From: Porphyridium purpureum
Lineage: Eukaryota; Rhodophyta; Bangiophyceae; Porphyridiales; Porphyridiaceae
Reading direction: 5' to 3'
Assembly: GCA_008690995.1 (NCBI GenBank)
Contig: VRMN01000003.1
Coordinates: 434,001 to 498,000, forward strand
Length of the DNA: 64,000 bases
This document shows, piece by piece, positions 895 through 62,536 of this stretch; positions within the stretch are counted from its first letter, which is position 1, and each line of letters starts with the position of its first letter. Under the pieces are notes generated by a model, which saw nothing but the letters and a program-made list of their open reading frames with translations, was not told the DNA's origin and did not search any database. Made by a program: the position numbers and the translations under genes.

Positions 895-975
895 GGGAAA
901 CTGTACTCACTGTACATAAACAATTTCGAGCTTACGCCAAATAAGCAGTCCTTCTCGGCGTTTACTGTACAGCTC
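895..975. promoter_or_regulatory. ACTGTAC element cluster upstream of the PP2C gene
   Basis: Exact ACTGTAC copies lie at 900-906, 909-915 and 964-970; the first two are spaced exactly 9 bp apart. The cluster is in the 282-bp spacer between the 5' end of the phosphatase gene and the 3' end of the gyrase gene, so it most likely serves the leftward phosphatase gene. The same heptamer recurs in front of many other genes here. A promoter role is inferred from position and recurrence only. Confidence 0.5.
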
Positions 976-1022
976 GACGAAGCTGGTGTCGGCGCTGCGG
1001 GTTCGCCACAAGGTCACTCGGT

Positions 1023-3836
1023 CTAATCCAGTTCCTCGCTTCCCGAACTGGCTCCGTCATCGAGATCCTCGCCTCCATCTTCTCCCACGTCTGCGTCTAT
1101 GTCTCCGTCCAGCTCGCCCATTTCAGTCTGTGCTACGATGGCAATGTCTGTCACCGTCTCGTTGGCAGCAACCGATTGCACTAAGCAGCCCTTCGCCATG
1201 CGGCCTAATATCGGAATGGAGTCGAGCTCCTGGCGGTTGATGGTACCATTGCTCGTGATGATCATAATCTGGTCTCCCTGCTTGCACGAACGCAAGCCCA
1301 CGACGCGCGCGTCCGTTTTCTTGGTCGGAAGCGCAATCACTCCGCCGCCGCCGCGGAGCTGTAGCTTGAAGTTTTTGGCCATGACGCGTTTGCCGCGCCC
1401 GTCAGATGCGATCATGATCAGCACAGATTCACTGTTGTCTGCAGCTGAAATGATATCCATATCCACAATCTCGTCGTGCTCGGAAATTCTCATCGACCTG
1501 ACGCCTCGTGCCCACCGGCCCATGCTGCGCAGCGATTTCGGAGAGCACGAGAAGCGAATGACCTTACCGGCTCGCGAAGAGACAATAATGGAGTCCTCGT
1601 CCTCGCACTTGCGAACCCAGCCCAACTGATCTCCGTCCGCAAATTGTATCGCACGCAACCCACGAATATTAACTCGCTCAAACACATCCAAGCGCGTCTT
1701 TTTCACCAGACCCTTCTTAGTCAGCAACACGATGGACGAATTTTCCTCAAACGCGGAAACCGGAAGCAACGACGCTACGCTCTCACCCGCCGGCACACCC
1801 GGAATCAAGCGGGACAGGGGTAGCCCACGTGATGAGCGCGAGCCCGCGGGGACCTTGTACGCGGGAAGCTTGTACGCAATGCCGAGATTGCTAAACACTA
1901 AAATATCGTCGTGGTCCCGGCAGTAACAAAAGTGCTCCACAATGTCGTCCCCCTTGAGCTTTGAAATGCCTGCCTTACCCGCCGTCCTGCGACGTTGCGA
2001 TTTAAACACATCTAGTGGCATGCGCTTGATGAATCCATACTTCGTCATGAGCACCACCGATTCATTGTTCGGAATCAGTGCAAGATCGTCAATGCTGCCT
2101 TCATCCACTGCGATCTCCGTGCGGCGCGGCTGCGAGCATGTCTTGGCAATCTCCTCCATCTCTTCAATAAGCACACCCTCCAGAAGGTGGCGATTCTGCA
2201 GCAGCGAGTCAAGGGAAGCCATCGACTCCTGCAACTCTTTTGACTCCAGCTCGAGCCGCTTACGCTCCATGCTTGTAAGTCGGCGCAGTTGCATGGATAA
2301 AATCGCCTCTGCTTGCGCTTCACTCAAGCCAAATTTTTCAGAAAGGCCCATCCGCGCTTCCGCGGCGTTGGTACTGGACCGGATCGTTTCTATCACGCCC
2401 GAAGTGTTTTCCGCAGAGATCATGAATCCCTGAACAATGTGGTACCTTTCGCGGGCTCGTTGGAGCAAAAACTTTGTGCGGCGCTTCAAAACCTGAATGC
2501 GGAATTCAGTAAATTCTGTCAAATAGTCCCGGAGCGTCAGTCGGCGAGGCCGACGCTTGTCGTCCAGCGCCAACACATTCGCACTGAAGTTCACCTGCAT
2601 TGAAGTCTTCTTCAGCATATTATTCACGACGACTTCAGGAAGTTGATCCTTTTTCAATTCGATGACAACTCGCATACCGCTCCGGTCCGATTCATCCCGA
2701 AGGTCAGCAATGCCATCTAACTTGCGGTCATTGACCAGCTCTGCGATGCGTTCAACTAGGCTGGCCTTTTGAACCTGGTACGGCAGTTCGGTAATAATGA
2801 TGGCATCGCGTACCATCTTCTTGTCGCGTGAAATCTTTTCAAAATGATATGAACTCCTCAGTGGTATGCTACCGCGTCCGGTCATGTACATTTCCCGCAC
2901 GCCAGACAATCCCATTATTTTACCTCCGGTGGGAAAATCTGGTCCAGGGCACTTCTCCAGCAGCTCCACGTCGCTCATTCTCGGGTCCCGAATTAAAGCT
3001 ACACACGCGGCGACCAACTCACCCAGATTATGTGGTGGAATATTCGTTGCCATACCGACAGCTATCCCTGTCGATCCGTTGAGGAACAAGTTCGGTACAC
3101 GGGCTGGTAGCACAAGCGGCTCGGTCTCGCTATTGTCAAAATTCGGAATCATGTCGACCGTTTCCAAGCCCAAGTCGGCGAGTAGTGCGTCACGGCTCAT
3201 GGCAGTCAGTCTGCACTCCGTGTAGCGCATAGCGGCTGGTGGATCGCCGTCTACGGATCCAAAATTCCCGTGCCCGTCCACCAGCGGCACAGACATGGAG
3301 AACGATTGGGACATGCGAACCAGAGCGTCATACACTGCGGTATCTCCGTGAGGATGAAACTTTCCGAGAACTTCACCGACGACGCGAGCACACTTGCGAT
3401 GCTGTGTGGATGGCTGCAAGCCTAGGCCGTTCATTGCATAGACGATCCTGCGATGTACTGGTTTGAGCCCGTCACGTAAGTCTGGAAGCGCACGCCCCAA
3501 AATGACGCTCATGGCATACTCCATGTACGACTGGCTGATTTCTGAATGCAGCTCTGCCGTGCCCGTTACGCCTCGCGCAAGGACGGCAACCCCCGCGCCT
3601 TCACCTCCGTCACCCTCAGCACCATCTTCAAATGACCCAGGAAGCTCTTCATCGATCTCTCCATCTCCTGCCCGTTCGTGCACCTGCGTCAATGCGCGAG
3701 TGCGAGCGCTCGCGCGCCCGAGCGCATGCACGCGCGAACACGCATTGACGCGGTCGCTGGGCCGGCATGCACTCTGCTTCTTCGAACCTGCGCCGCACGT
3801 CAAGTTCGGCACGAATGCAGTATAGTTGGCCTCCAT
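1023..3836 (-). CDS. GYRA: DNA gyrase subunit A, probably plastid-targeted
   Basis: ATP-dependent type IIA topoisomerase subunit that cuts and reseals DNA to supercoil organelle genomes; its partner GyrB is not in the window. The 937-residue protein from the ATG at 3834-3836 has a leader of about 100 residues rich in Ala, Arg and Ser, then the GyrA core: [49 protein letters not shown], and [10 protein letters not shown] carrying the catalytic Tyr at about residue 205. The GyrA box is recognisable but diverged as [10 protein letters not shown], and beta-pinwheel blades follow to an acidic tail. A longer frame to 3959 starts at TTG and was not used. The bacterial-type core with an N-terminal leader fits a nuclear gene of cyanobacterial origin; in plants gyrase serves plastids and mitochondria. 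The position equal to E. coli Ser83 is Thr. Confidence 0.93.
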
Positions 3837-3979
3837 TCCCCCGCGCCCACGCCAACCGCTTGACCCGGTAAGCTTCGCGACGTCCACCAAGCAGTTACCG
3901 TCACGTCCCCATCCGCCGCCCGCGCGCTCATCCCCTCCGGTGCGGACCGTGAAGCTCAACCGACAAACCGTTCACACAG

Positions 3980-4030
3980 TACCGCGCTGTACCTCCACAC
4001 AAGATGAGCTGTACTTACACTGTACTATTT
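3980..4030. promoter_or_regulatory. Divergent promoter region with ACTGTAC-type elements (GYRA / PSMB5)
   Basis: The 398-bp spacer between the divergent gyrase and proteasome genes (3837-4234) carries an exact ACTGTAC at 4019-4025 and two CTGTAC variants at about 3987-3992 and 4009-4014, all within 40 bp. They lie 150-190 bp from the gyrase ATG and 210-250 bp from the proteasome ATG. Nothing else is recognisable in the spacer. A shared bidirectional promoter is an inference. Confidence 0.5.
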
Positions 4031-5892: not shown

Positions 5893-6222
5893 CTTACTAT
5901 CTCACAGGCCTCGCCGCTTGATCTGCTGCTCCCCCCTTCCCAAAGAATCACCAGACAGGCAGCCCTGCACATCTACCTCTCGCCAACGACACTTCAGCCT
6001 CTCTTATCTCTGTGTGCAATCGGCGCCCTTTTCTTAGAATGAAGGCCCGCACTCTCTCATCAAACTGGGCTGTTCTCGGGAGTCGAACCACCGCCGGCGC
6101 GCCTGGGTGTCAATCACTGTACCCAGGCACTGAACGTTGGTCTGTGCGCGGCACCACAGAACCCTTAACCTAACCCTGCGCCACGGTTAGCTTCAGGGTT
6201 TTAAAAGAGGTACACTACCGTC
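5893..6222. promoter_or_regulatory. Divergent spacer eL34 / Furry-like gene with one ACTGTAC element
   Basis: 330 bp. An exact ACTGTAC lies at 6116-6122 inside a perfect 8-bp inverted repeat (GCCTGGGT...ACCCAGGC on the minus strand). A telomere-like run CCCTTAACCTAACCC lies at about 6163-6177. A T-arm-like GGTTCGACTCC on the minus strand near 6082-6092 has no matching tRNA body. No gene is visible. It probably acts as the promoter for both flanking genes. Confidence 0.4.
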
Positions 6223-9200
6223 ATGGGTGTACAGCAATGCGGCACTTCACAACTTGCCACAACACGAAACTTTCCGACTCGTGCGCTGTCGAACGGAGCG
6301 TTCAAACCGGCGCTTGTGCTCTTGTGCTGCTTGTGTTGCGGAACGCGAACGAGTGTTCCGGCGCATTGCCAAGGAGCACGCACGCGCTTTCTCGTGAGCA
6401 CAGGCTCACCACCTGCGGAGTTTCGTGCGGAGTTGAATGTGCGTCCCATTGAAGTCATGACTGAGCCGCGGGCGGCTCAAGCTCCAGGCGTCGGCGGGCT
6501 TCATCCAACACCTGCGGCGTTTGGAATAAAGCCGCTGAAGGGCGCCGACACAATGTCGACGTCTGATACTTCTGACTTGACCGGAGAGATTTTCATGACA
6601 CCACGTGCCGAAAAGCCCAAATCGACACGTTTCCGTGCAGGAATTTCGGAAGGAACCAGCGGTGCACATCCTTCCGGCGCGGGCAATTCGGTGCTATCGC
6701 CCGGCAAGCGCAGTGTGAAGAGTCGAAGCGGTGCAGATTCGGCGAGTATACACCACGACGTCGAACGAGTACACGCCGATGCAGATTCACTTTCCAATCC
6801 CGGCCCAAGGTCAGGAAACTCAAGTACGTTTACCAAACGGTCGAAGGGCAAGCACGCACCTCACGCATTGAAGAAGGCAAAAGCCGGCGACAAGTCGGGA
6901 TCACTATCCGCGAGCAAAAGTGTCACAGGTGAGAGGCCTTCAGCAGGAGAGACCACCGCGCCCTTTGGTGGTGTTCCAATTTCTGATGGGATCCTCTTAA
7001 TGCGTGCTGTCGTCGATCGCGTACAAAGAGAGGCACTCGAGCTCATCAAGGACCTCATTCCAAGAGAAGACAGGAGGGTTCTTGGTCTTGATGGCACGAA
7101 CACAACACCAAGTGAAAGCCGGAACTTTGCAGATACTTCGCGACCAGAAGCGGGGATCGGACAATTTCTTGGAGCGCGGCTCTTGGGCGGGGCGCACGCT
7201 TCAGCGGGCGGGATAGTAGCTGGAGTTATGCCGGTCGCAGGCGCCGGTGTGAACACCGCAGGCGTAGGGGCGCAGGGTCAGACGACTCAAACAAAGGATT
7301 CGAACGTTTCTAGTACTGCTGCCCCAAACTCAGCGGGTGCAAAAGACTTGGGCTATCAGGTGTTGTCCGATGTTTTGCCTGTTAGAATAGATCCCCTCTT
7401 TTCGTCTGGTGAGGCGCGTTTTCCGTCGTCGCTCGGCGCTTGCTCCCAATTCAGGACGGACCGGTTCAGTGGCACACAGCAGTGGTCCTTGGACATCGAG
7501 ACTTCCTCCGGACGGCCGCGCTCCTTCATCGACTTGCTTCTGGTGTGCTCGCAGATTGAGGCTGGGAATGAGATCATTTGGGACAATCTACTTCGACTGC
7601 TGCATTGGCGCGAATTCATTCTGTTTTCAGATTCTGCTGATCTTGTCGGCCGCCAACACTCTTTTTCTTCCTTTGCGAAAGTCGGGCGGGTGCAGAGCAC
7701 TTCAAAAATAAGGCCTGAAAGCTTGACAGCACTAGTTACACGTGCGACGTCCGGAAAGGTGACTGCTTTAGAGGAGGCGTGGTTGCGGATGCTTATAACA
7801 GTTGAGTTTGTTCTTAGCTACATTCTTATTGAGTTTCTGTACGCTCATCAAGGCCAGCTGAACGCTGGTGGGCTGTCTTTGAACAGTGGGTATCTTGGCA
7901 ACGGGAATCTTTCCACAGCTGATAATCGAGGAAGCGGGACTTTCACGGCAGATTCCCAACCCGTCGCACGGATGAGATCAATGATCCGATCGCACGCAAT
8001 TGCCTCAATCAAGATGTTTGGCGTGCCTTTTCGGGCGGTATCAACATGGGAAGAAGCGACGCTTCAGAATCAACGAATCATTGTGGAGATGTATGGTCGC
8101 ATTCTAGCATTCTTGGATTATCCCGGCTCGTACGCGTCGGGTGCCATCGAGTTCAAAGGCATTTTGGAACTCGAGTTGAAGAAATTGAGCAAGGTGACGC
8201 TAGCAGATGTGCAAGACACAGTGGGGCTTCCAAAGCTGCCCTTAAATCGTGCACTGGTGCACACGCCTTTCTTCAAAGCGGAAGAGAGCAAGCAGACACG
8301 AACATTGCGCGACTCCGTGCTACAGCTTGAAGTGCTCTATAACCTCAGATTTTGCAATTTAGGCTACGCACATGACCACCCGGACGACTCGGTCGCGCTT
8401 TTTCGTTTATTTTTAGGCCTCGTGTCATCGGTTCGCAAGCCTGAGGTGATGCTGGCACTTGCCGATGTTCTAATTGAGCTACTTGGCAGCATGGATCCTT
8501 CTGAAATTCCAGACTCGAATGGATGGGACCGAGTAATCACGGACCTCTTTCGGATGTTCTACACTCAAAAGATCCTTGCGTCGACGTACCCGGTGTGTGC
8601 TGCACTCTTGGCTTTCCAAAATGAAAGCTTCTACCTTGAGAACAGCAAGTTGTTTTTCAGGGAGTGTATGAGAATCATTGAGGTTCCCAAGTCAGGCAAG
8701 GCAAACCAGAGCCTCCGTTCAGGTGCTTTTCGCGCGCTCGCCGTGTTTTTCTTTTTTGACCTGAAGCGCTCAGTGCAACGGAACTGGTCACGAGTCTCGC
8801 AACGCGTAATGGACTTATTCGAACTCTTTTTGATTTCGAACAGCGGTACTTTGCTGATGGAGCCCGAAGGCCCTGAACTCATTGTGTCAGTGATGGAGTC
8901 ATTGTGCCGGTACGCTGATCACGACTTTCTCATGAACTTTTTTACCGCTCTGTTCGAAGCCCGTCACTGTCGTACGGAGTCCGTGACCATTGGACTGCGC
9001 GCATACTTGAATGTAATCGCTCTTGTTGAGGAGGAACGGGAGCTTGAATCGCGAGGCCGGAGCTCGAGTCGCCCACGGCAAAGTGGCGCTGTGGCTGCTG
9101 ACATGGAGCGTATCCTTGATCTAGGTGACGTATCCCGGGACATGGATAGTGAGCACGACAATAACAACTACAAAAACAACACACATGCGTCAAGGTCTTC

Positions 9201-12200
9201 CTTGGATCAAGTATCAACAAAGGACCATAATGCGCTTGATGCCACAACGAAAAGCGTGACTGGACAAGAGATTTCGAACGGACTCGTGAGTTCTGCGTAT
9301 TTGAGCGCGCGCGTGACGCGCATTCTTGTCGAAGCATCGCGCTTTGTGCGTTCGGAAGTCATTAGCTCCATCCAGTCTCATCGGTGGGAACAGCAAAATG
9401 AGCTTGAACGAGATGAAGGAGTGGCGCGCAACTACTCGCGCTTGCTTCTTGGCATTGAGTGCTGGACCCGAGCACTGCGATTGGTGCCAGGCGACGCCCT
9501 GGGATACCTCCATCCGCAGATGATTTGGCCTGGAAGCAAGTCGCTAATTTTGTCTTGGCTTGTTCACCCGAACCGCGATGTACGCACGTTAGCCTGCGAG
9601 CTCATTCAAATTTTGTTTCTGCGTTGTCGCGTCTTGCGCTCCAGCCTGTTGAGAGAAGTCACTGTGCTTGCGTTTGAACCTATTCTTTCTCTCATGCGCC
9701 CGGAGCCTGTCATTTTAAGCCCCATCATACGACTCGTGCGACAGCTTCTGGAGTACCAGAGCTTTTTCGTGTGGAAGCTCGGCTCTGAAGTGGTGGATAG
9801 AGATCCATTTGACTCGAGTACGCGCGAGCAGGGACGCTGGGACTCCGACACGAGCGTCATGAATCTCGTCGGCGGTCTGATTTTGCATTGCCTTTGTTCG
9901 CCTGACGTCGCTGTGAGAAACAGCGCCTCCGAGGCCCTTCATGGTCTATCTAAACTGCGAAACGTATTCCAGTTGAACAAGGTGAAAGACTTGAAGCCTT
10001 CTCTCTGGCGAACTTCTATTGCAGATTTTGCACGGTGCATACCCGTTCCATCTTCATCGACGACAGCCGCACCTACGATTGGCGATCAGCAGGACAAGGG
10101 GCGCATCGTGTCTGCTCTAGCACTGTCCGATGCGGATCGCGAGTGGAGACAGGTTCTAGTCCACTTTGTGTCAAGCTGCACAGCGGCAAAAGTTGCAGAG
10201 ATGCCCCCTGCAATTTCAATGACTTGGAACCAGATTCTAAGTAGTGTGCCTCGCATCGCGGCCTCGCTTCTTGATGCACCCAAAAAAACAGGCTATGGGG
10301 TCGCGAATTTGGAATTTGCCAAGAACCGCAACGCAAAAGTAGCGCCATGGTTTGTGCCTTACTGGACCTCGTATCTGCAGAATTATATATACTTTCTTTG
10401 CGCGGCCGCTCGGTGCACCGGCAGCGTGCAAGACGTGTACCGAGCGTTGCGAGCAGACACTGCAGATGCTCAGGAGGATTGCAACTGCCACATCAGCGGC
10501 GAAGCTGTCCGATCATTTCTGCAGCTCCTGATTCGAGCTTGGGGAGGAGGAGATGATCCGGATATACTGGACCTGCCAGAGGATGTGCGAAATATCATAC
10601 ACGGTGCTCTGTCGCTGGTCCACCCGTTTGCGGTCGATAGCTTATTTGCGGAACTCGATGCCGAACTTGAAACTCCTATCTTTCTCTTGGACGAAGCGGC
10701 ATCTCCCAGTCGCCATGCAACCAAAGATAAGAAGGCCGGACGGCTGAGACGCAATGAAGGTATACTGTACCAGATTGAGTACGTGTATATGGTCGTGGCA
10801 CGCCGCATGAGCACATGTGGCCTACTATTTACGCACAGTGCAACCCTGAAAAGCGTCGTGAAGCACGTGCGCCGTGTACTGCATTATTTCATGACGCGTC
10901 GCGGGCATGGTCTTGCGGACTTGAACGGGTCTACAACCGCCACTCCCAAGCACCCGCTGTACTTTCTCGAGTTGGTACAGATCCTGATCCATGATCAGAA
11001 TGAAAAAAGCCAAAGCCGCGTGGCCACGACGGCGGCGGAAGCACTGGACGTGAAAACACGCACAGGTCTTTTTGATCTACTCCACTCTTGGTTTTTCTCG
11101 GAGCATCGTTCTCGCTTCGTGAATGGTCCTCCAGTTAGTAAGGCCAGAAAGGAGTCGAGCCAGGCGAATTTGCAGTCATCTTGGGGACTCGACCAGGCGC
11201 CTTCTCATTTGGAAACGACAGGTTTGCTAGAGAAACTGACAGAGAGTTCGTCGCTCATTAAGTCTATGTCACTTTGCTTGATGGGTGGCAGTTGGCGTTC
11301 TGATCCAGATTTACTTATCGAAGCGTCAGAACCTCTCGTGCCTACAAGCAACGAGCTCAAAATCATTCAGTGGGCAACGGCAGTCTTCCAGTCCGGCATC
11401 AGTGCTGATATTGGTGCGGTACGTGCGGGTCTTATTGCTTATGTTCGCGCGACGCCTTTCTTCGGCAATCTCCTGATTGATTTGTGCTATCCTACACATG
11501 AAGGTGACAAGTCACGTCTAGCGGCGGTGCATTTCTTCATCACACTGTGCCAGATCATGCTCGTGAAATTGCAGAACATGCCCAAGCACGCGCGAAATAT
11601 GCACCATGCAGCCGAGTATGAATTTCACGCGAAGATCATGACAATGTGCCTGCTAGCACTTCTCGCGGATCGCACTGGTGCGTCGCTTCATCAAATCGCC
11701 GGCACGCATGTCAAAATTCTTGGGTTGCAGGTCCTTCAGCTTCTCTTCCAACACCACATGCATCCGCCAGAGGACGTAGGCGATTCGAGTCTCCAGCACG
11801 AGCGGCGTCTTGGGTTTGACTCGGTTTCTCAACTGGAGCGTGTGTCGTTTGTGCCGCGACTCATTGAGGAACTGGAGGAGGTAGTGGATGATTTGTGTGA
11901 CTTCTTGACGACGGAGCTCAAGTTTTTGGCCGTTTTCATCGCGCTTGAGATGATTACGCGTCTGCAACATTCATTTCTCGGGCACGAAGAAATTCGACGA
12001 GCAGTGCGTGCTCTGTCGCACTTTGTGCGCGTGCTCACGCCATCAACGCCGCAGATTGAAACCGTCACAAGACACCTCATGATGCTTTCGCTGAAGTATG
12101 CGAGCGAGAATACCTCGTCAATTCAAGACATCTGGATGGCTTACGCAGAAAAGTGCATCGCTGTCGGCATGTCTTTGGTGCTGGCTTGGACTGTGCAGTC

Positions 12201-15123: not shown

Positions 15124-15366
15124 CAAGTGCAGGCCAGTAAATTTTTACTGAACCCTACCAAACCGGAAGTACAGTGTGGGTGTTCTGTATTCGCTGTACC
15201 CGGGCGTCCATTCAAATTTTTGAAAACGGCATTCCACTAGAAGCCCGGAATGCGGCATGTGTTCCGGTCTGAGGACGGGGATTGAAGCCGTACGTAGAGG
15301 ACAGACGCAGCGACGCCAGCCGCGCTTCTCCAGGTTTGGCAGGAGTTTACGAGGAATAGAAGCAAT
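15124..15366. promoter_or_regulatory. Spacer with GTACAGT element upstream of the coiled-coil gene
   Basis: 243 bp. GTACAGT lies at 15169-15175 and a CTGTAC variant about 25 bp downstream, roughly 170-200 bp before the ATG at 15367. This matches the distance seen in front of other genes in the window. No other feature is visible. Confidence 0.45.
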
Positions 15367-16542: not shown

Positions 16543-17193
16543 ACTCCAGAAGCTCTTGATGTCGCGTCGAGCAGCCAGTCCTTTCAGCCTGTCCTTATTT
16601 GCCCTCCAAATCAGCTCGGTGTCTTCTCCATACATCTCAATTGCTCGCTCGACGTCGAGGCTCGCCAGCAAGTGGAGAACAGGTAATGGACTCCGATTGG
16701 TATAGTTTGTTACGTCTTCCATTCCCTCCGAGTCTCCGAATACGTACTTGGGGTGGAATGTGGCGAGCTGCACCACGCCTTCGCAATCCATTGCCGCGAT
16801 CATGTGCTCCACGTTGTCCGCGTACATCAGAAAGGACTCGAAGTCAGCGAACCACTCATTCGTCAACACAATGAGAACCGTGGGTGCTCGTTGTGTGAGC
16901 TCACCGTTCCGGGCACCGAAACTTTTTCGCCCAAGCGGCAGTTTCGAGGCATTGTTGTGCCACTGACGCAAACATGCGACATGGGTCGCAACGACCGAGT
17001 CCAACTCGGGTGCCCAGCCACCGGTGTGCTCGACGAACACCACTGCGTTCTGCTCCTGCACCTGACTTGCCCAGGGACACAACTTGAGCCCGACAACAAC
17101 GTTAGTGACCCAGTGCCGCACTCGACCAACAGGACATGCGGGTCTTTGATCACTGCTCGACACGCGGGCGACAACGGAAGCAGCAAACGCCAT
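16534..17193 (-). CDS. DUF1415 family protein
   Basis: 219 residues from the ATG at 17191-17193; the frame continues to a TTG at 17232, which was not used. DUF1415 proteins are conserved in bacteria and photosynthetic eukaryotes; their function is unknown. Seen: RHWVTNVVVGLKLCPWA (residues 26-42, with the family Cys-Pro-Trp), a central APTVLIVLTNEWFADFESFL, EGVVQLATFHPKYVFGD (about 138-155) and NYTNRSPLPVLHLL (163-176), which together are diagnostic. No membrane segment is seen. The first 25 residues could be a short presequence. Only 93 bp separate its ATG from the next gene's 3' end, so its promoter must be very short or lie inside that gene. The last 9 bp overlap the convergent coiled-coil gene. 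Confidence 0.88.
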   Translation of the reverse strand: MAFAASVVARVSSSDQRPACPVGRVRHWVTNVVVGLKLCPWASQVQEQNAVVFVEHTGGWAPELDSVVATHVACLRQWHNNASKLPLGRKSFGARNGELTQRAPTVLIVLTNEWFADFESFLMYADNVEHMIAAMDCEGVVQLATFHPKYVFGDSEGMEDVTNYTNRSPLPVLHLLASLDVERAIEMYGEDTELIWRANKDRLKGLAARRDIKSFWSLL

Positions 17194-23694: not shown

Positions 23695-23770
23695 CGCTGT
23701 ACTTAGGTGTTCAGTGTCGTCTTCGCGAGACCGATCCGGAAAGGCGGCCGGTACAGTATGTACAGTTGGG
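23695..23770. promoter_or_regulatory. Divergent promoter TIM17 / Sel1-A with tandem GTACAGT
   Basis: Two exact GTACAGT copies at 23751-23757 and 23760-23766 are spaced 9 bp, the same spacing as in front of the PP2C gene; a CTGTAC variant lies at about 23697. The cluster is in the 346-bp spacer between two divergent genes for proteins with likely mitochondrial links, about 120 bp from the Sel1 ATG and 220 bp from the TIM17 ATG. Confidence 0.55.
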
Positions 23771-30240: not shown

Positions 30241-30980
30241 AGCACGGAAGCGCGAAAGCGTGTGGAGACGTGGCACCAAGCAGTGCCCCAAGGATTCGGG
30301 AGGGGAAGTCCGGCGTGCGTGCTTCACCGTCTCATTTGATTTGAGGCCATTTGCACCAGATAATCCGCGTCATTCTTCGCAGACAAGCCGCAAAATTACC
30401 ATACGCCAGATTGTGGAGTGATGCTGAAGACTCCGGAAGAAGAATATGAATTTGGGGATGCGTTTGGGCATCGGCGCGATCACGAATGTACGCCCATTCA
30501 TCGTGCAGACGTCCGATGGTTTGAACTCTGTCACGCGGGTCTCATGCACCACTTGGTGGGCACGGGAGTAGGCAAAGTTTGTTCGTCTGCCTTGATTCGA
30601 GAATGGGAGAGACGTTCGACCTTGTACCATTTTGCGCAGCGCGTGCCTTCTGCAACAACAGACCCTTCTCACAGGTGCCCTAGACGTTTGTCTTCCAGGC
30701 GCAGCTGTACGCGCTTGTGAGAACACCAGAGGGACCACGCTGAATCATCGGCTACCGCAGCGACGGCAGCCGCCCAGGCCATTCGGCATCATGCGCTGCC
30801 GTGGTTGCTCATCGGAGTCGCTTGCGAAAAGTAAAGCGGTACAGTCAAACCAACTGAACCTCTTCGGAAAGCTCAGAAGCGGACGTCGGGCGGGCGAGCG
30901 GGGCGGCGGAAGAACAGAGTCTTGGCGCCCGTCTCGCAACTGACAGCTTGTGCTGGGGTTCGTGGCGGTGCGGAGGCGGA
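30241..30980. promoter_or_regulatory. Spacer upstream of the FKBP gene with one GTACAGT element
   Basis: 740 bp. GTACAGT lies at 30839-30845, about 135 bp before the FKBP ATG. Open frames of about 100-120 codons occur on both strands between 30370 and 30740, but none resembles a known protein. The rest is probably the 3' untranslated region of Sel1-B. Confidence 0.45.
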
Positions 30981-34894: not shown

Positions 34895-34960
34895 AGCGGT
34901 AGGGTAAGTACAGTGCGAGGAAGGTGTGTGTACAGTATAAGTACAGTTTGTGTGTTCACT
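34895..34960. promoter_or_regulatory. Divergent promoter PHB2 / GOS28 with three GTACAGT copies
   Basis: Exact GTACAGT copies at 34908-34914, 34930-34936 and 34941-34947, within 40 bp, in the 538-bp spacer between two divergent genes. They lie 210-250 bp upstream of the GOS28 ATG and about 300 bp from the PHB2 ATG. A simple GCTGGCTGGCTAGCTGGC-type run sits beside them at about 34844-34880. This is one of the two densest clusters of this element in the window. Confidence 0.55.
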
Positions 34961-38584: not shown

Positions 38585-38650
38585 TTTCAACTGTACCGAA
38601 GTGGCCGATGAGCAGTACCTCTGTGTGGTACAGTTTATTCGTACAGTCGG
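38585..38650. promoter_or_regulatory. Divergent promoter (Sec14-like / SerRS) with three GTACAGT-type copies
   Basis: ACTGTAC at 38590-38596 and GTACAGT at 38628-38634 and 38641-38647, inside the 453-bp spacer between two divergent genes, 160-215 bp upstream of the SerRS ATG. Both orientations of the element occur here, consistent with service to both genes (inference). Confidence 0.55.
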
Positions 38651-38732
38651 TGGGTGTGAACTTGCGCGGCGCGGCGGTGAAGGCGTATGGAGATGGACAG
38701 AGCGGGAGACTAGGAGGGAAACGTACAGAGTG

Positions 38733-38735
<3 letters not shown>

Positions 38736-38770
<35 letters not shown>

Positions 38771-42556: not shown

Positions 42557-43536
42557 GATGCTGTTGCTTGTCTGCCCAGCCTCCCTTCACGCCTCTGACC
42601 TGCGATGGAGTTGCCTGGTCCTGTTGGTTGGATACTGACACCTATGTGCGCCTTTGTGCTCTGCTGTGTGTGAAACTGTATGCTTGCGTTAATCTCTGTC
42701 CGTTTGGCAGGCCATCGACCATGCTGGGGCGACGCGCCCTTTATATATCCACGCGCAGAGACCGCCCAACGGCGCGGTGGCTTTCTGTGCCGCACGCACA
42801 TGTTACATGTGACATGGCATCCTCATGGGATCACTATCTTATCACCATGCAGCCGACAGTGAGTCCGCGTTGCTTGCCTGGTGTGACCATGACGCGATCA
42901 AGACACGAACGGAAACACCCCATTTCCGCATTCCGTCCTTCCTTCCCCCTCAAAAACCCCAGCCACTTCATCCTCACGCACATAACACGGCATGTTGTCT
43001 GCATCTCGGCTCGTGTGCGTAGGATTAGTGAGGCAAGGCAAGGCAACATCCACAAACTCCTTGCGGCATCTATCCGACTTGGCGCGCCAGCACATTCCCA
43101 CCAAGAAATTCACTCACTCCCACCCACCCACAAAACATAGGCGGTGTGTAGGCGGTGTACACGCCTACATCAAAAAGATTGTGGGTTACACACACATCGA
43201 TCATCTATCCACCACGCCACACAGCGCACGTTCACCCAGTTACACTTCGCTTGCGACTCGGGCGCCCCGCATCTCTCCCGACCACCACGTCTTTGCGCGC
43301 TGCTGACTCGGACGCTAGGCGCCCGAAATGCAACGACGCCGCGTGCGACAGGGGGTACAGTCGGATTCGGACGTTGCCCCGCGCCACGTGTCGATGAGGT
43401 GGACGCCGACGCGCGGGAGGCACGCGACGGGAGGAACAAGCCACCGAGGCCACTCGCGCTTTCGCGACGCCCTCACGAAGCGCCCGGCGGTTTGATCCAT
43501 CCCCAGCGAGGAGGAGCACACAGCATTCCGGGTAGA
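42557..43536. other. Spacer upstream of the ARF-like gene
   Basis: About 980 bp. A TATA-like CCTTTATATATCC lies near 42738-42750, about 180 bp upstream of the ARF-like ATG. One GTACAGT lies at 43355-43361. Open frames of up to 190 codons occur on the plus strand, but their composition (Cys/His/Arg-rich) looks like chance. No gene is supported. Confidence 0.4.
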
Positions 43537-45864: not shown

Positions 45865-46626
45865 TTAAGCTGTCGTCGGCGAAGACGAGGGCGAGGCATG
45901 AAGTGACTCAAGACGGTAACCAAGGCAATGCAGAGTGCACACCAACGTGGCAAGGCTGGTCCCGGTCAACATAGACGGCCCAATGCCAGTCAGCATGAAC
46001 CCTAGGAAGCCAAGGACACTCCATGCAATGACGCGACCGCGATTTGACTGGTAGGTCGGGTCCTCATCGTACAACTTCTTGAGCTTGTTTCCGACTGCGT
46101 ACGAAATGACGCCGAAAATCGCGAGACTCACGGTATTGATAATGACAAAGAAACCTGCGCAGCTCGCCGCAATAAGCCCGTAATTGACCTTGAAGTAATC
46201 AAAGTTTTGCGCAATGCGGTTTGCTGTCTCACCCGGCAGCGGGAAGCTCCAGTTTGAAAATGCAAAGAAGTCACTCCACGGGCGGGACGCGTCCATGGCC
46301 ACCATGGCGTCCTCCTTCACCTTGCCAGCCGCAGAATTCACGTACTCCCAGAATCCTTCAAAGAAGTTTGGTTCGCGCTGCTGGCTTGCAGCAATGTGTG
46401 ATGCGGGCGCGGTGTTCGCGACTTCCAGGTCTGCCGGATTCTCGATGCCCACGGCGCCGTCGCGGTAGTGATGATGATGCACCTCGACTACTCGTACTCC
46501 CTCCTCGTTGGCAACGTGGTCTGGCGCCTGCGCGCCAGTCGCGTACGTGCGTACGGGAGCAGAGGATGTCGCGCTGCCGTCGTCCATGCTCAATTTCTCA
46601 AAGCCTTCCGGAACCATTTTCCGCAT
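45865..46626 (-). CDS. PRA1 family protein (prenylated Rab acceptor)
   Basis: 253 residues from the ATG at 46624-46626. PRA1/Yip3 proteins are ER-Golgi membrane proteins that bind prenylated Rab GTPases and help deliver them to membranes. Seen: an N-terminal soluble region of about 110 residues with VVEVHHHHYRDG; then the PRA1 core RPWSDFFAFSNWSFPLPGET, ANRIAQNFDYFKVNYGLIAA; and two pairs of hydrophobic segments (SCAGFFVIINTVSLAIFGVI; AWSVLGFLGFMLTGIG). The family pattern RPW-x-EF, then R-x-x-x-N-x-x-YF-x-x-NY, is clear. The soluble N-terminus is longer than in many plant PRA1 proteins. Confidence 0.88.
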   Translation of the reverse strand: MRKMVPEGFEKLSMDDGSATSSAPVRTYATGAQAPDHVANEEGVRVVEVHHHHYRDGAVGIENPADLEVANTAPASHIAASQQREPNFFEGFWEYVNSAAGKVKEDAMVAMDASRPWSDFFAFSNWSFPLPGETANRIAQNFDYFKVNYGLIAASCAGFFVIINTVSLAIFGVISYAVGNKLKKLYDEDPTYQSNRGRVIAWSVLGFLGFMLTGIGPSMLTGTSLATLVCTLHCLGYRLESLHASPSSSPTTA

Positions 46627-46971
46627 CAAGTCGCAGGCGCGCTGGCGCGAGAAGGCGCAGAAGTGAGCCGCAGCACTCTACGCTCGCGCGCGCGTCTAGC
46701 TGCCTCGTGACTTTGTTATACTTGTCTGCCGGGTTGACACGTGCTGTTCCTTCCGCAGCTGTGTGCAATGAGGTCGTCGCACCATCCACGCCCTCTTTAT
46801 ATCCAGCTGCGCGTTCGCTCATTTATCCCAACCCGATTGCGGAAGGACAGCGCGTGCGTTTCACGTGGTTGCATTCACTGTACACTACGAGAAAAATGCT
46901 AGCCCACGTGGGGAGCTGGAGCAGCCGGTGCTGTGCAAGCGTCTGCGTGCGTGCGAGAGAGCAGCGTCCAA
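46627..46971. promoter_or_regulatory. PRA1 promoter spacer with one ACTGTAC element
   Basis: 345 bp. ACTGTAC lies at 46877-46883, about 250 bp upstream of the PRA1 ATG and about 90 bp from the 3' end of the membrane-protein gene. A TTTATATCC TATA-like string lies at about 46795-46803. No gene is seen. Confidence 0.45.
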
Positions 46972-54447: not shown

Positions 54448-55347
54448 TCCCACTAGATCCGATCACTGCGTGATCACTGGCCGATCATTCACCTGGCTTT
54501 CGCCGACTCCCTCGTCCCACACTGCCCGCGTTTTCCGCCCGGGTCTAAATTTGTCGTGACGTACACTAGCTGTACTTCTACAAACCAAGTACAGCTCCTC
54601 AAATTCTGAGTACAGTATCGAACCCCCCCCTGCTTTCACGCGTGCGGAAATTGTTTCCCGAAGTGGCAACGCTTGGCGCGAGATAGAGACACGCAGGCCC
54701 ACGCGCCATGTCAACGATGCCTGACATGTTGGCCAGCTGGGAGATTGCGGCGCCTGTGCCAGTGTAATGATGGACGCGACGCAGCCAACGCGACAAATCC
54801 GGCGCGCGGTGTGCGCGCATGCATCCAAAAAAAGTCTGAGCACACACTTGCGCATACTGGGCTACTGATTTGTCGTCTCGCGGTAGCCAGTCATGTTGGC
54901 GCGCATGTGCATCTCGATCCGGGATCCATGCGGCGCACGCGCGATGCTGGCGAAGGTCAGAGCATTGCGGGTTGGCCACTTTGGGGGCCTTTCGTTGAAG
55001 GACTCGCATGTGCTGGAAAGTGGCGACCCGTCGCGGTCAAAATGCCTGGACACTCGTCTTGCCGGATGTTGCCGGACGCGGCATCTCGGGTGCTTGCACT
55101 GGGACAAGTGCTTTCAAGGTGAGATCTCACTGGCGCGAGGTGTTATTTAAGCGAGGCGAGCGCGACGTGCTTCGTCTTTTCCCGGCTCGTGGGTTCGACG
55201 CACATCTCACAAAGCAAGTTGGGGCAGAGCAAGAATCACAAGGTGGGAGCAGAGGGAGGTTTGCTGCGCTGTGATCACGTGCATACCAGAGAGACGGTCA
55301 ATTGCAGGCCAAGCGACGTCCTGGTGTAGCGATCTGCAATCGACGCC
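54448..55347. promoter_or_regulatory. Divergent spacer (oxidoreductase / Hint gene) with GTACAGT cluster
   Basis: 900 bp. GTACAGT at 54610-54616, GTACAG at about 54589-54594 and CTGTAC at about 54570-54575 form a cluster 120-170 bp upstream of the oxidoreductase ATG. Open frames of about 85-150 codons follow on the plus strand (54673-55150), with a GTGAGA at about 55119 that could be a donor, but no recognisable protein. The final 200 bp must hold the Hint-gene leader. Confidence 0.45.
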
Positions 55348-57144
55348 ATGGCTCGCACGCCGAAGGGATGGGTGGTAAATGTACATCAACGTGTGCTCTT
55401 GGTATGTGCACTGGCTGTTGTTCTTGCGGCATCGATCGACGGAGCTGTTGTGCGACTGAAGAACGAGCCGACCTTCACGAGCATGGTTCTCCGGCATATG
55501 GAGCTTCCGCCGAATATTCCCGACGAGTTCCGAGGCTGTGTGGAAGCGCTCCACGATTCATGTGGAGCCATCGCGATTGAATCGACATGTGCTGATTGCA
55601 TGATGGTCAATCGCAAAGAGCGTGGACCTCTTCATCACGAAATGCCTTCGCGCACGCGTCATCGCGAGGGCCGCGGACGCGCTGGGTCGGACGACGAAAG
55701 CGGCAACGACAGCGAAAGTGGTGAGGAAAGCCAACTTGAGTTTGGAGGCGAATGTCCCGCGGCGTGCTGCGACAAAGTGGATCTCGTCTATACTTGTGCC
55801 ATGTCGATGCTTGATTCAGACGTGTGCAGCAGTGAGACTTCTCGCGCGATGGTGACAACGAGACCGTTCCGTCGCCTTGGTAAGGCACATGACAGGTGTG
55901 AAAATGCCAGTGATGACGGTACCGATACGGAAGTACCAGAGTCGACAGAGGAAAGCTTGATGGACGGTACCGGTGATATTGCTTCGACAGTGCAACCGGG
56001 ACTCAGTGAATCGACTCCAGCGTTTGGCGGCATCGAGGCAAGCGAGCAGTCGGACGCGGAGGAAACGAACTCAAAGGACGTGAAGTCGTCTGCATTGGCA
56101 GAAGCGACGGCAGATTCGGATCAGTCCACAGCCTCCGGCGACGCTTCGAATTCTGACGGTGAAAAGAACGATGGAAGTCGAAACTCTGACGATGAAGAGA
56201 ACGATGGAAGTCGAAACTCTGACGGTGAAGAGAACGATGAAAAGTCAAACTCTGACGTTGAAAAGAACGATGGAAGTCGAAACTCTGACGATGAAGAGAA
56301 CGATGGAAGTCGAAACTCTGACGGTGAAGAGAACGATGAAAAGTCAAACTCTGACGTTGAAGAGAACGATGGAAATCCAAATTCTGACGATGAAGAGAAC
56401 GATGAAAATCCAAACTCTGACGTTGAAGAGAACGATGGAAATCCAAATTCTAACGATGAAGAGAACGATGAAAATCCAAACTCTGACGGTGAAGGGAGTG
56501 GCGAAAATTCGGACTCTCTTGCCGAGGCCATCGGGACGGGGGATGTACCGTTGCAGAACGACGTCACTGACGGGGGAAATTCCTCAAACTGCTTTGCAGC
56601 AGATGCCCGTGTCCGTCTGGAGTCTGGTGCTTTAACTCGCATGGACGAACTGAAAGTTGGAGATCGTGTGTGGATCGGAGGTGACCAGTTCAGTGATGTC
56701 TACTTTTTCGGTCACGCTGACAGGAACTCTGTCTCCCGAGACTTTGTCTCAATCCAGCTTGAGTCTGGCGCAACTGTAGAACTGACGAAGGATCATCTCG
56801 TGCGCGACGCTAGAGGTGGTCGATACGTCGCGGCGCAGCACGTACGTGTCGGTGATTCTTTGTACGACGCGGTGCATGGTATCTCGCATGTTGTACATGT
56901 GCAGCACAACCTGGAGAAGCGCGGGCTTTTCAACCCTCACACAATGCACGGGGATATCGTCGTTGGGAATGTGCTGGTATCTTCGTTCACTACTGCTGTC
57001 AATCCTTTCCTGGCACACATTCTGTTGCTTCCAGAACGACTCGCCTACTTGGTCGGGACGAGGGCGTACGGAAAGATGCTGGAGGCCCAGACTCCTGCGG
57101 TTCTTGTGAGCTTGAAAAACCAGCTGGCCGTGAGCACTCTCTGA
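55348..57144 (+). CDS. Secreted protein with acidic tandem repeats and a Hedgehog-type Hint (Hog) domain
   Basis: 598 residues. N-terminal signal peptide (VLLVCALAVVLAASIDG, about 16-32), a Cys-containing region of unknown fold (about 60-190), an acidic Ser-rich stretch, eleven tandem 11-residue repeats (268-388), then a Hint domain from Cys415. Hint evidence: NCFAADARVRLESGALTRMD with Cys at the self-splicing position, ELKVGDRVWIGGDQ, VELTKDHLVRD (the Thr-x-x-His motif as TKDH), HVRVGDSLYD, and the Hedgehog-like end GLFNPHTMHGDIVVGNVLVS. Such domains cleave themselves from the upstream part; in animals they attach a sterol. The sterol-binding tail is not evident beyond 70 residues. There is no Hedgehog signalling (HhN) domain. 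Confidence 0.88.
   Translation: MARTPKGWVVNVHQRVLLVCALAVVLAASIDGAVVRLKNEPTFTSMVLRHMELPPNIPDEFRGCVEALHDSCGAIAIESTCADCMMVNRKERGPLHHEMPSRTRHREGRGRAGSDDESGNDSESGEESQLEFGGECPAACCDKVDLVYTCAMSMLDSDVCSSETSRAMVTTRPFRRLGKAHDRCENASDDGTDTEVPESTEESLMDGTGDIASTVQPGLSESTPAFGGIEASEQSDAEETNSKDVKSSALAEATADSDQSTASGDASNSDGEKNDGSRNSDDEENDGSRNSDGEENDEKSNSDVEKNDGSRNSDDEENDGSRNSDGEENDEKSNSDVEENDGNPNSDDEENDENPNSDVEENDGNPNSNDEENDENPNSDGEGSGENSDSLAEAIGTGDVPLQNDVTDGGNSSNCFAADARVRLESGALTRMDELKVGDRVWIGGDQFSDVYFFGHADRNSVSRDFVSIQLESGATVELTKDHLVRDARGGRYVAAQHVRVGDSLYDAVHGISHVVHVQHNLEKRGLFNPHTMHGDIVVGNVLVSSFTTAVNPFLAHILLLPERLAYLVGTRAYGKMLEAQTPAVLVSLKNQLAVSTL
56149..56511 (+). repeat. Eleven 33-bp tandem repeats in the Hint gene
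   Basis: Eleven in-frame 33-bp units encode 11-residue repeats with consensus NSDxEENDxxx. Units 1-3 and 4-6 form a near-identical 99-bp super-repeat (NSDGEKNDGSR / NSDDEENDGSR / NSDGEENDEKS), and units 7-10 form two near-identical 66-bp pairs. Unit 11 is diverged (NSDGEGSGENS). The nested order indicates stepwise expansion by unequal exchange or slippage. Confidence 0.95.
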
Positions 57145-57346: not shown

Positions 57347-58258
57347 CTACTCTTTCTTATCTTCCTTTCTCGTCTTCTTTGTGGACGAGGATGAACCAGT
57401 CACAGCCCTCCCCGCGCGGCGGCTCGCTGGCTCTCGGTCTCCTGCTGGACCCCTCCATTCGCGCTTGCGCCAGTTATGGAACCAAGTCTTGACTTGCTTG
57501 AAGTCCAAATCGGTTGCTGCAACCAACATGTTGACCTCTTCATCCGTCGGATACGGATATTCGATATGAGCTTCGGCCCATTTCTTCAGTTCCATCCTAG
57601 AATCGTCCTGGGTGACTCTGCCGACGACCTGTGCCGATGCGAGGTCTCTGATCGCATCATGGAACCTTTCGCGAAGCTCCTGGTTTTGCCTTCGATCGTC
57701 AGACGAATCTAGACCGACGTCGGCGGAAACCGGTACAAGTTCGCGCGCTGATTCTAACATCACCTGTTTGCATTCCTCCTCGCATTGCCTCATGAGGTGA
57801 TCGAGCCTGTTCTTGTAGCTTTCGATCAAAGATATGTACGTGTGAAACCACTCGTCCGAGCTTCCAGGAGGGCTAGGAGCAGGAGGACCTGTGTAAGACC
57901 CTGGAGCGGGTGCTTCGACCATGCCAACAGCACTTCCGGCAGCTTCGTCCACAGTGAAAGGAACTGCGTCTGCGTACGCAGACCCCGTGCCACCGAACGC
58001 GTCTTCATCGCGACCATCTGTCGCCGTGAAGGTGGCCGAAGGTCCACTTCTAGGATTCACGGCAGCAAAAATTGTTTCTCGTGCTTCGTCATGCGCGTCC
58101 TCCGGGAGGATTCGCTCTCCAAGTGAAGCTGCACTTACGCCGGGTTGAGACATCTCGAAAGCAGTTCTGGAGTTGCTTGCTCTCGTGTACGATGCCTCTA
58201 CTGCTCCAGTTGAGCCTTTCTCTGCGCTCACTGTGCTTTCGCTTGACGTTGGAGGCAT
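57347..58258 (-). CDS. TALE-class homeodomain transcription factor
   Basis: 303 residues. The C-terminal homeodomain (about residues 226-275) reads LKKWAEAHIEYPYPTDEEVN, then MLVAATDLDFKQVKTWFHNW, RKREW. The three-residue loop extension (PYP) between helices 1 and 2 and the WF-x-N recognition helix place it in the TALE class (KNOX/BELL/PBC relatives). Residues 135-215 are helical (DEWFHTYISLIESYKNRLDH, ESARELVPV) and could correspond to a diverged upstream dimerisation domain such as KNOX2/MEINOX; the match is weak. The N-terminal 130 residues are disordered. In green algae TALE pairs start the diploid programme after mating; a role here is unknown. A basic Ser/Lys tail could be the nuclear signal. 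Confidence 0.93.
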   Translation of the reverse strand: MPPTSSESTVSAEKGSTGAVEASYTRASNSRTAFEMSQPGVSAASLGERILPEDAHDEARETIFAAVNPRSGPSATFTATDGRDEDAFGGTGSAYADAVPFTVDEAAGSAVGMVEAPAPGSYTGPPAPSPPGSSDEWFHTYISLIESYKNRLDHLMRQCEEECKQVMLESARELVPVSADVGLDSSDDRRQNQELRERFHDAIRDLASAQVVGRVTQDDSRMELKKWAEAHIEYPYPTDEEVNMLVAATDLDFKQVKTWFHNWRKREWRGPAGDREPASRRAGRAVTGSSSSTKKTRKEDKKE

Positions 58259-59567: not shown

Positions 59568-60722
59568 TTAGGCTTCTGCTTCCTTTTCTCTGTTCTCAGT
59601 TGCCTCGAGGTTCATTTGAAGAACTTTGCGACTCAGATCAGCATGGTCTTGCTCAATTTGTTCTTCGAGAATGGAAGTCCACAAACTGGCAATTTCAGCA
59701 CGCAGCCTCATGATTTCTTTCGACAATCCAAGTGGTTCGGTGAAGCACGGCTCCTCCTCGCCGGGCTTGCAGCTCATGATCGGCGGTTCCAACATCATCT
59801 TCCACACGAAATCACGAGCGACGCGGAACCTTGGCACGGCGTCGTCCAAAAAATAGGCGCCTTCCTTTTCCAAAAACTTGGCCAGCCATTTACGGTGCGC
59901 GTCATTTTCGCCTGTTTTCATGTACTGCTTCACCGCGCAATACGTGGTCATACGGTCCAAGAGGTCTGCGGTACTAGACCGCATCGCATCGTGCGGAAGA
60001 GGGTCAAAATCGTGTGTGAAAACCTTTTGCAGCTCATCCTTGCTCTGCTTGTGGAACTCGACAAGATACTGTTGGCGGAGCAGCTCGTTCTCGCGCGGAA
60101 TGACCTTGAGATCCTCTGCACATTCTTTGCTCGTCTGTGCACGCACGTCCATCAGCAAACGTGCCACCTTGGCGGGATTGACCTCCTCGGTGTACTCAAA
60201 GTACTTTTGCTCGATATAAGGATTGCCAGGTGAACCCTGTCTGCGCATCGGCTTGCGAATGACGAGTTCCGTGACCTCGGCTTTCAACATGGACTCCAGG
60301 TACTCGTTCCACGGTATCTTCATTCCGCGAAAGCCGTGATACTTTCCTACGCCCTTCTGACCCGCAAAGTTCTCCAAGAAGCGTGCCCCGGTGCCATTGC
60401 CCATTTCAGTCTGGTACACCAGCAGCGTTTGAATGGCGCGCTGCAATGTGAAGTCTTTGATCAGCAGCTCTGGGTGGAACGCGCTAAACTTTGGGTAGAA
60501 CGCAGACGACCCGCCAACCGCGGTAATGACACGCGCGCGCCTGAGACCCACAGAGCGGGCACGATGGCTTGGAGCCGCGAGTCGTCGTCCAGAACTCGCC
60601 AATCCGGAGCAACTGCGGATCAAGGCGTTCTCTGAGGGGGCAAGTATCTGACACCGCTTGCACTTCTGAGCCGAAACAGCCCGGACCGGCTGCGCCGCTA
60701 CAAATCCCGTGCAGGCCTCCAT
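59568..60722 (-). CDS. Probable plastid-targeted protein of unknown function
   Basis: 384 residues. The first 70 residues (MEACTGFVAAQPVRAVSAQK, Arg/Ala/Ser-rich, few acids) read as a transit peptide. The mature part is well-behaved globular sequence with no recognised domain: LIKDFTLQRAIQTLLVYQTE, GNGTGARFLENFAG, FRGMKIPWNEYLESMLKAEV, NPYIEQKYFEYTEEVNPAKV, a helical middle, then FLEKEGAYFLDDAVPRFRVA and a C-terminal coiled coil (about 330-384) rich in Glu. The low-complexity-free composition suggests a conserved family, possibly restricted to red algae and algae with red-derived plastids (inference; a database search would settle it). No metal or nucleotide motif is visible. The upstream spacer to the divergent glycosyltransferase gene is 1.8 kb. 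Confidence 0.8.
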   Translation of the reverse strand: MEACTGFVAAQPVRAVSAQKCKRCQILAPSENALIRSCSGLASSGRRLAAPSHRARSVGLRRARVITAVGGSSAFYPKFSAFHPELLIKDFTLQRAIQTLLVYQTEMGNGTGARFLENFAGQKGVGKYHGFRGMKIPWNEYLESMLKAEVTELVIRKPMRRQGSPGNPYIEQKYFEYTEEVNPAKVARLLMDVRAQTSKECAEDLKVIPRENELLRQQYLVEFHKQSKDELQKVFTHDFDPLPHDAMRSSTADLLDRMTTYCAVKQYMKTGENDAHRKWLAKFLEKEGAYFLDDAVPRFRVARDFVWKMMLEPPIMSCKPGEEEPCFTEPLGLSKEIMRLRAEIASLWTSILEEQIEQDHADLSRKVLQMNLEATENREKEAEA

Positions 60723-62536
60723 ACTCTACCTATCTCTGCTCCGTTTCTGCAGGCGCCGTGTTCGTTCTGATGTCAGGCAGTCAGGTCGCCACGCTATCAC
60801 TCAACATCAATAGGCGGAGACACTGCGACTGGCGCGTCTCTGATCCTGTGCCCTGTCCCACCCCCTTCCACGGACTGCGCACGGTTAGTATGTTCGTCTC
60901 CAACGGCTGGCACAACCTAACGTTACCAGTCCAAACATAGGCGCGCGCTGGTTGCCTTTATAGATACTCAGCGCAATGGCCTCCAGTCCAGTCAGCCGAG
61001 GTAGTGTCACGTTGCGTTCCACCGAACTCGATGCAGGCTGACTGAAATGGGGCTGGCAGGAGTTTGGCGCACGCGTCAAGGCAAGGAGAAACCAGATCCT
61101 ATCGAAAATATCAAAGGCGTACCCGGCACCTTCATGTTTCTCCTGTTTCTGCTGTGCTTTTTTTTTTTTTTTTTTTTGCTTCTGTGTGCGTGAATGGCGT
61201 TCATGGACTGAGCTGGATTGCCTCGTTTGAAACAGGACGGAAAAAGGCTGCCGTTACGCGTTCCTTCATAGATGCGCTGCTTTTTCACGAAACGATCCTG
61301 CGTCTAGCTAAACGCTGCAGTTTTATGGAGACTGACCGACTCAGTGCGACTGTACCTCGTCCGAGAAGTGCGCTGCCGAGCCGCCATACCTCCAAGTGGA
61401 ATGGCGCAGGACGGAATTCGCGTCGCGTTGGCAGCGACGTGATATCTGACTCGTGCTGTGAGTATGACCTGGCACTGCTTCAGGCTCTCCAGATTTCGCA
61501 CCCAGCTGCTGCGAGCTCCGCGCCCGCCCACATTCCCGCTCAATTGTGCATCTCCACGCCCACGGAATCAAGACTTGCCGCCGGCTCGGAACACTGCGTT
61601 CAATGAGGATCGTGTTTTCTGATTGCATTTTGTGAGGCCCGCACAAAACGAAGTCCTTGCAGCGAAACGGCAAGCACGCAACGAGATTCAGCTGAAGCTG
61701 GTTCGTCCAAGTGGTGGCTGCCTTTTTCTCCGTCACCGAAACTGCCAACGCTGCTTGCGCATGCTTCGTGGAGCAGGTGGATGCGCACCAGATTTGCTTC
61801 GCCCTATGACCTTCACACGGGGAAGGGGCGCTCCTGAGCTGCTTCTGTGCACCCTCAAAACGACTCAATTTCCGGCTCGTCAGGGCGGAGTGGTGTGAAA
61901 TCAGAGCTGTGCTCCTCAAGTCCTCCATGGTTGTCGTACGCTGAGCCTGGGAACCCTTCTCTCCAGTTATGATAAAATAGGCGTTCTCCTCCGCGGCGAA
62001 GAAGCAATAAGCGCTGCCATGCTTCGTGATGACGAGCCCCTTCACCCGAGTTCCAACACGTATACCACAGAAGAATAGTTTCCTTCCAATGACCACACTA
62101 AACCAGCCTTGGCTCTGTAAAGCTTTTCATGAATCCAACAAGGCCGAAAGCTCGCAAAGCTGACCTGCATGAGCGTTGCGCGACTGTATCCTGTGTGGCA
62201 TGTGCATGCACAGTTGCGTGCGGGGAGAACCAGGCAGGCCTCACGGACAAAAGGCGTGGCGTTAGGTAGTCATATTTGCATGCATACAGCCAAAAAAAAG
62301 AGGATGCGGCTGCTCTAGACCAACCAGCCACCCCTGTCATTGGGTCCATTCCACGGGGCTGGCTCGCACACCCGCGTTCTCCAAGCCTCGGAGGCCGACC
62401 TGGTGCCACCCTCGCGACTTGGCGGCAAACATGGACTCTCACTTGTCGGTCTTCTCACTGTACCGCGTTGCGTCTGATCGTGACGCAAGCGCAAGTCGCT
62501 GGTCGAAGATGAGATGTGCGGGATTCGGTGAAAAGC
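60723..62536. other. 1.8-kb divergent spacer with ambiguous open frames
   Basis: ACTGTAC lies at 61349-61355 and at 62457-62463; the second is 80 bp upstream of the glycosyltransferase ATG and probably its promoter. A T20 tract lies at 61158-61177. A 251-codon minus frame (61341-62096, no ATG start) begins with protein-like GIRVGTRVKGLVITKHGSAY, while plus-strand frames at 61320-61606 and 61623-61898 are also plausible. A spliced gene on either strand is possible; none is supported enough to call. Confidence 0.35.

Follow-up and report, generated by a model that had tools for sequence, protein, structure and literature searches.

GTACAG(T/C) as a candidate upstream promoter element in a 64-kb window of the Porphyridium purpureum genome

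Gene Content of the Window

The window, by which we mean the whole 64-kb stretch of DNA analysed, carries long ORFs without introns at a density of about one gene per 2.2 kb. Our gene set consists of 29 ORF-predicted models from this one window, and their starts are predictions. Thirty-one ORFs were scored, from which an overlapping pair at 56121 (minus strand) and 56171 (plus strand) was dropped. Start codons were chosen by score at three loci. The ORF extending past the left edge of the window was given its best-scoring ATG at 740, passing over the first ATG at 917. The ORF at 22978 (Tim17-like) was started at its best-scoring ATG, 23538, and not at its first, 23886, while the ORF at 45865 was started at 46617 (best-scoring) and not at 46626. 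For the ORF at 28354 the first ATG was kept. A minus-strand fragment at 16555-17070 (172 codons), convergent with a Sos7-domain gene, has a good coding score and lacks an ATG; it may be one exon of a gene with introns. It was counted as coding in the analyses of spacer classes, of spacer shuffles and placement, of genes and variants, and of masked flanks.

Pfam matches in the window include a proteasome subunit, ribosomal protein L34e, Tim17-like, SNARE-like, Arf and cyclin proteins, a Y-family polymerase domain, a KN homeodomain and Hint. A bacterial reading of the window was rejected, as the proteasome, L34e, SNARE-like, Tim17-like and seryl-tRNA synthetase genes are eukaryotic. One scan of a prokaryote collection returned no relatives of L34e. 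The best solved match of the seryl-tRNA synthetase was entry 6gir, which we take to be a plant seryl-tRNA synthetase. Amid these eukaryotic genes lies a gyrase A gene of bacterial type (1023-3836, minus strand), presumably the sign of a plastid-bearing organism. No tRNA genes were found in the window, nor did it give any Rfam match at the gathering score. The Hint-domain ORF (55348-57144) contains a 33-bp tandem repeat of 10.4 copies at 56152-56494.

The window has a GC content of 55.4%, and the GC3 of its 29 genes is 0.651 ± 0.081. In PMC10496412, P. purpureum is given a GC3 of 0.648 ± 0.070 (22.19 Mb; 9,898 coding sequences), with 0.594 for Cyanidioschyzon (C. merolae) and 0.569 for Cyanidiococcus (C. 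yangmingshanensis). The window genes are thus nearer to P. purpureum than to either of the other two. Only around 200 introns are reported for P. purpureum (PMC8831791).

Occurrence of GTACAGT

GTACAGT occurs in 23 exact copies on both strands of the window. An earlier note on this DNA had placed 20 copies in spacers and three in coding sequence; all 23 positions proved exact, and no further copies were found. The three coding copies (10764, 12486, and 13104) all fall within a single 2,966-codon ORF at 6223-15123. The 20 noncoding copies form 13 clusters and are given below with neighbouring GTACAGC sites; negative numbers are distances in bp to the start codon.

900..915, minus strand: GTACAGT tandem pair (900, 909), 9-bp step; sense to the left-end ORF with its ATG taken at 740, and coding if that ORF starts at 917
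964..970, minus strand: GTACAGT; sense, -230 of ATG 740
3986..4025, minus strand: GTACAGT at 4019 with GTACAGC at 4008 and 3986, 11- and 22-bp steps; sense to gyrase A, antisense to the proteasome subunit gene
6116..6122, minus strand: GTACAGT; -230 of ribosomal protein L34e, antisense at -107 of a MOR2/PAG1-like gene
15169..15175, plus strand: GTACAGT; -198 of the Sos7-domain gene
23751..23766, plus strand: GTACAGT tandem pair (23751, 23760), 9-bp step; -134/-125 of a Sel1-repeat gene, divergent partner Tim17-like; coding if the Tim17-like gene starts at 23886
30839..30845, plus strand: GTACAGT; -142 of an FKBP-domain gene
34908..34947, plus strand: three GTACAGT (34908, 34930, 34941), 22- and 11-bp steps; -249/-227/-216 of a v-SNARE-like gene, divergent partner a Band_7 gene
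38590..38596, minus strand: GTACAGT; -246 of a CRAL-TRIO gene
38628..38647, plus strand: two GTACAGT (38628, 38641), 13-bp step; -176/-163 of the seryl-tRNA synthetase gene
43355..43361, plus strand: single GTACAGT, antisense, in a spacer poor in genes; nearest start 798 bp away, no target gene assigned
46877..46883, minus strand: GTACAGT; -266 of a PRA1 family gene
54569..54616, mixed strands: GTACAGC at 54569 (minus) and 54589 (plus), GTACAGT at 54610 (plus); upstream of a zinc-binding dehydrogenase-like gene, with the sense GTACAGC at -128 and the antisense GTACAGT at -169 (gap 162 bp)
61349..61355, minus strand: GTACAGT in a long spacer; sense, 626 bp from the nearest facing start
62457..62463, minus strand: GTACAGT; antisense at -80 (gap 73 bp) of a glycosyltransferase-like gene

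The motif is strongly over-represented. Dinucleotide shuffles of the whole window (n = 100) gave a mean of 2.86 copies and a maximum of 8, compared to the 23 observed. The earlier note had put the chance expectation for the 64 kb at about 8 copies, which is too high, so the excess is larger than its author thought. When only the spacers were shuffled (n = 1000), the mean was 1.29 and the maximum 6, compared to 20. The copies are also confined to promoter DNA, with 20 in 19.5 kb of noncoding DNA and three in 44.5 kb of coding DNA. Equal frequencies in coding and upstream DNA had been named beforehand as an outcome that would refute a promoter reading. Within this one 64-kb window we found enrichment upstream of genes over both coding DNA and shuffles, which does not refute the promoter reading.

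Gene-start uncertainty (917 or 740; 23886 or 23538) touches four copies and leaves the conclusion unchanged. If the alternative starts 917 and 23886 hold, 16 noncoding copies remain, still about tenfold over chance. Ranking all noncoding 7-mers against a second-order Markov model placed GTACAGT at the lowest p (20 vs 1.74 expected; p = 5e-15), followed by an A/T run (30 vs 5.12; p = 5e-14), with GA and CA runs also behind it. At k = 8, mono- and dinucleotide runs ranked above the 8-mers of GTACAGT. Two other noncoding 7-mers, AGGCAAG (12 vs 2.63) and GTGATCA (10 vs 2.1), were near the multiple-testing expectation over thousands of 7-mers, and the GTGATCA excess is inflated by the palindromic GTGATCAC.

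Core Sequence, Repeats, and Surroundings

Alignment of the 20 noncoding copies with 20 bp on each side revealed a sharp core of just seven bases, GTACAG(T>C). Outside it, no position exceeded 0.46 bits, and a C directly before the core was rare (1 of 20). Among all 21 single-base variants, GTACAGC alone was clearly enriched in noncoding DNA (10 vs 2.33; p = 1.6e-4). GTTCAGT was marginally so (7 vs 2.02; p = 0.005 before correction).

Repeats were found in several spacers, six of which hold two or three GTACAG(T/C) copies in one direction. The tandem spacings described in the earlier note are real: 9 bp for 900/909 and 23751/23760, 11 bp for 34930/34941, and 13 bp for 38628/38641. With GTACAGC included, the nine same-strand neighbour distances are 9, 9, 11, 11, 13, 21, 22, 22, and 55 bp. 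These were phased near 10-11.5 bp (p about 0.004 under two controls, n = 9, the period range having been fixed after the data were seen). Helical spacing of the repeats is supported, on few cases. The gyrase A and SNARE-like promoters have 11- and 22-bp steps in common, in reversed order.

The surroundings of the motif are AT-rich. Its flanks (20 bp per side) contain 53.6% AT, compared to 43.8% around random anchors, when motif copies are masked, and only one of 3000 trials was as high; the unmasked values are 53% and 44%. The leader downstream of GTACAGT is G-rich, as it is, less strongly, for nine motif-free genes. A jump in skew at GTACAGT relative to random anchors was not significant (p = 0.094). 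GA and GT runs are sense-biased upstream of starts, mostly within the last 20-85 bp (38727-38768 and other leaders). Sense and antisense counts were 25 and 6 for GAGAGA and again 25 and 6 for GTGTGT, where counts within runs are not independent and p is uncorrected.

Placement and Direction

GTACAGT was present in 7 of 8 divergent spacers, 5 of 14 tandem spacers, and none of 7 convergent spacers. This agrees with the earlier description of the motif as frequent in divergent promoters. By length, the classes held 13 copies in 4,874 bp (divergent), 7 in 12,812 bp (tandem), and 0 in 1,249 bp (convergent); the convergent zero is weak evidence because these spacers total only 1,249 bp.

Sixteen of the 20 noncoding copies lie in sense orientation 125-266 bp before an ATG. 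Random placement in spacers (5000 trials) gave on average 2.4 sense copies at 100-270 bp, with a maximum of 8, this distance window having been picked after the data were seen. The statement that nearly all copies lie 80-300 bp upstream of a start codon therefore holds for these sixteen, and fails for those at 43355 and 61349. The copies at 54610 and 62457 are near a start codon but antisense.

A preference for the sense direction is likely, though not firmly shown. Flipping whole clusters gave p = 0.040, which is marginal because a copy flipped within a divergent spacer will in many cases point at the gene on the other side. When strands were counted over all upstream regions, the result was not in favour (16 sense vs 12 antisense; p = 0.29), and this count is uninformative since each copy in a divergent spacer is scored for both neighbouring genes. 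In tandem spacers, four of five clusters (900-970, 15169, 30839, and 46877) read in the direction of a gene no more than 270 bp away, and 43355 is the one antisense cluster.

Genes with and without the Motif

Within 350 bp upstream, 10 of the 29 genes have a sense copy of GTACAGT, 6 have antisense copies only, and 13 have none. The motif had been proposed as a general promoter element; its promoter-proximal position and preferred place support a promoter role, while the 13 genes without a copy show that it is not universal. Genes with a sense copy include those for gyrase A, L34e, seryl-tRNA synthetase, FKBP, SNARE-like, and PRA1 proteins. Motif-free genes include Arf, cyclin, Hint, and homeobox. 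Three of the 13 motif-free genes have a whole spacer shorter than 100 bp, and a fourth has one of 190 bp. Using GC3 as a rough proxy of expression, the 16 motif-bearing and 13 motif-free genes did not differ (p = 0.47). Two consecutive Sel1-repeat genes (23885-26527 and 28354-30240) are present, the first alone having GTACAGT within 500 bp upstream.

A sense TATA[AT]A was found within 500 bp upstream of 4 of the 29 starts. Noncoding DNA contained 8 such sites compared to a shuffle mean of 3.06 (sd 1.84). As this is above the shuffle mean, the promoters are best called TATA-poor; that they are TATA-less is unproven.

Comparison with Known Systems

The yeast general regulatory factors Reb1, Abf1, and Rap1 bind compact, sharply defined sites, repeated in some cases, in housekeeping promoters that are divergent and poor in TATA boxes. 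GTACAGT resembles such sites in all these respects and in lying upstream of the start. However, it is unlike the Reb1 core (TTACCCG) in sequence, and its probable orientation preference also differs. The oomycete INR-FPR elements are core promoter elements read by the basal machinery. GTACAGT is similar in its probable sense orientation and in belonging to promoters of a microbial eukaryote in which TATA boxes are scarce, but has another sequence, a variable position, and multiple copies.

Two further candidates were considered. SBP-domain proteins are a green-lineage family, and GTAC copper-response sites occur in green algae and plants; these sites share the GTAC core with our motif. In noncoding DNA, GTAC as such was found 71 times vs 59.4 expected, GTACAA 5 vs 7.8, and CGTACA 8 vs 9.9, unlike GTACAG, which was enriched (33 vs 8.0). 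TALE (KNOX/MEIS) homeodomain proteins have TGACAG as their site, with ACAG common to both motifs, and a KN homeodomain gene is present in the window (57347-58258). Noncoding TGACAG was not enriched (5 vs 9.4). As neither GTAC in general nor TGACAG is enriched, the green-lineage GTAC sites do not fit, and nor do the TALE sites.

Discussion

Several explanations could account for a short motif upstream of genes. It is hardly credible that the copies are remnants of a dispersed repeat or mobile element, or an artefact of composition. Their clustering would suit this origin, but no similarity beyond the core was found (no position outside it exceeding 0.46 bits), spacer shuffles (n = 1000) produced at most 6 copies compared to 20, and the 2 bp separating the 9-bp tandem copies are not the same in the two pairs. 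We also regard as very unlikely that the motif acts in RNA, with GUACAGU in 5′ leaders serving as the site of an RNA-binding protein or as the 5′ splice site of leader introns. The probable sense orientation and the initial GT are consistent with such a role. However, six genes have the motif in antisense only, copies are concentrated in divergent spacers, and tandem copies hardly fit a splice donor. The stretch from motif to ATG holds a branch-site-like CTRAY, a consensus which may not be the organism's, in sense in only 3 of 10 promoters and in antisense in 1 of 10, and the roughly 200 introns reported for P. purpureum (PMC8831791) are few.

The probable orientation would also suit an initiator-like core promoter element through which the basal machinery sets the transcription start itself. 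The G-rich, leader-like sequence downstream and the AT-rich dip around GTACAGT are also in its favour. We nonetheless consider it improbable: the distance to the ATG varies over 140 bp (-125 to -266), six spacers have two to three GTACAG(T/C) copies in one direction, 13 of 29 genes are without GTACAGT, and 9 of 10 promoters, as a raw count, have upstream ATGs separating the motif from the start codon. Together, the spread in distance and the repeated copies make an upstream factor-binding site likelier than a fixed-position core element. Such a site could belong to a pathway-specific regulator (of the cell cycle, light, or nutrients) whose targets merely look housekeeping. This would suit the 13 genes without GTACAGT, among them Arf, cyclin, Hint, and homeobox. 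Yet 16 of 29 genes of mixed function (10 sense, 6 antisense only) are a high share for a specialised regulon, and we think a regulator of this kind unlikely.

Our data suggest that GTACAG(T/C) is probably an upstream promoter element, the predicted site of a sequence-specific nuclear factor in an intron-poor red alga. We infer that such a factor is bound at GTACAGT and that it activates transcription. The putative factor would bind within the AT-rich dip of mostly TATA-poor promoters, at a site lying some 125-270 bp upstream of the ATG and in most cases pointing the same way as the gene. The site may be used singly or as direct repeats. As direct copies are about one or two DNA turns apart, two to three factor molecules could share a helix face. 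Once bound, the factor would hold the promoter in an open state and bring in the transcription machinery, which would then start downstream; the target promoters would be mainly those of housekeeping genes.

Promoter motifs are a known kind of element, while GTACAGT itself appears undescribed in the literature searched: judged by title and the start of the abstract, none of the literature matches listed reported it as an algal promoter motif. A more far-reaching proposal, which we put forward tentatively and consider rather doubtful, is that promoters of a red algal nuclear genome are defined mainly by GTACAG(T/C) arranged as helically phased direct repeats. The element would there stand in place of TATA boxes or yeast general regulatory factors and be recognised by a family of DNA-binding proteins that green plants are not known to have. 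A motif this sharp and frequent offers a direct handle for promoter dissection in an alga open to transformation, and a way to find the factor that recognises it.
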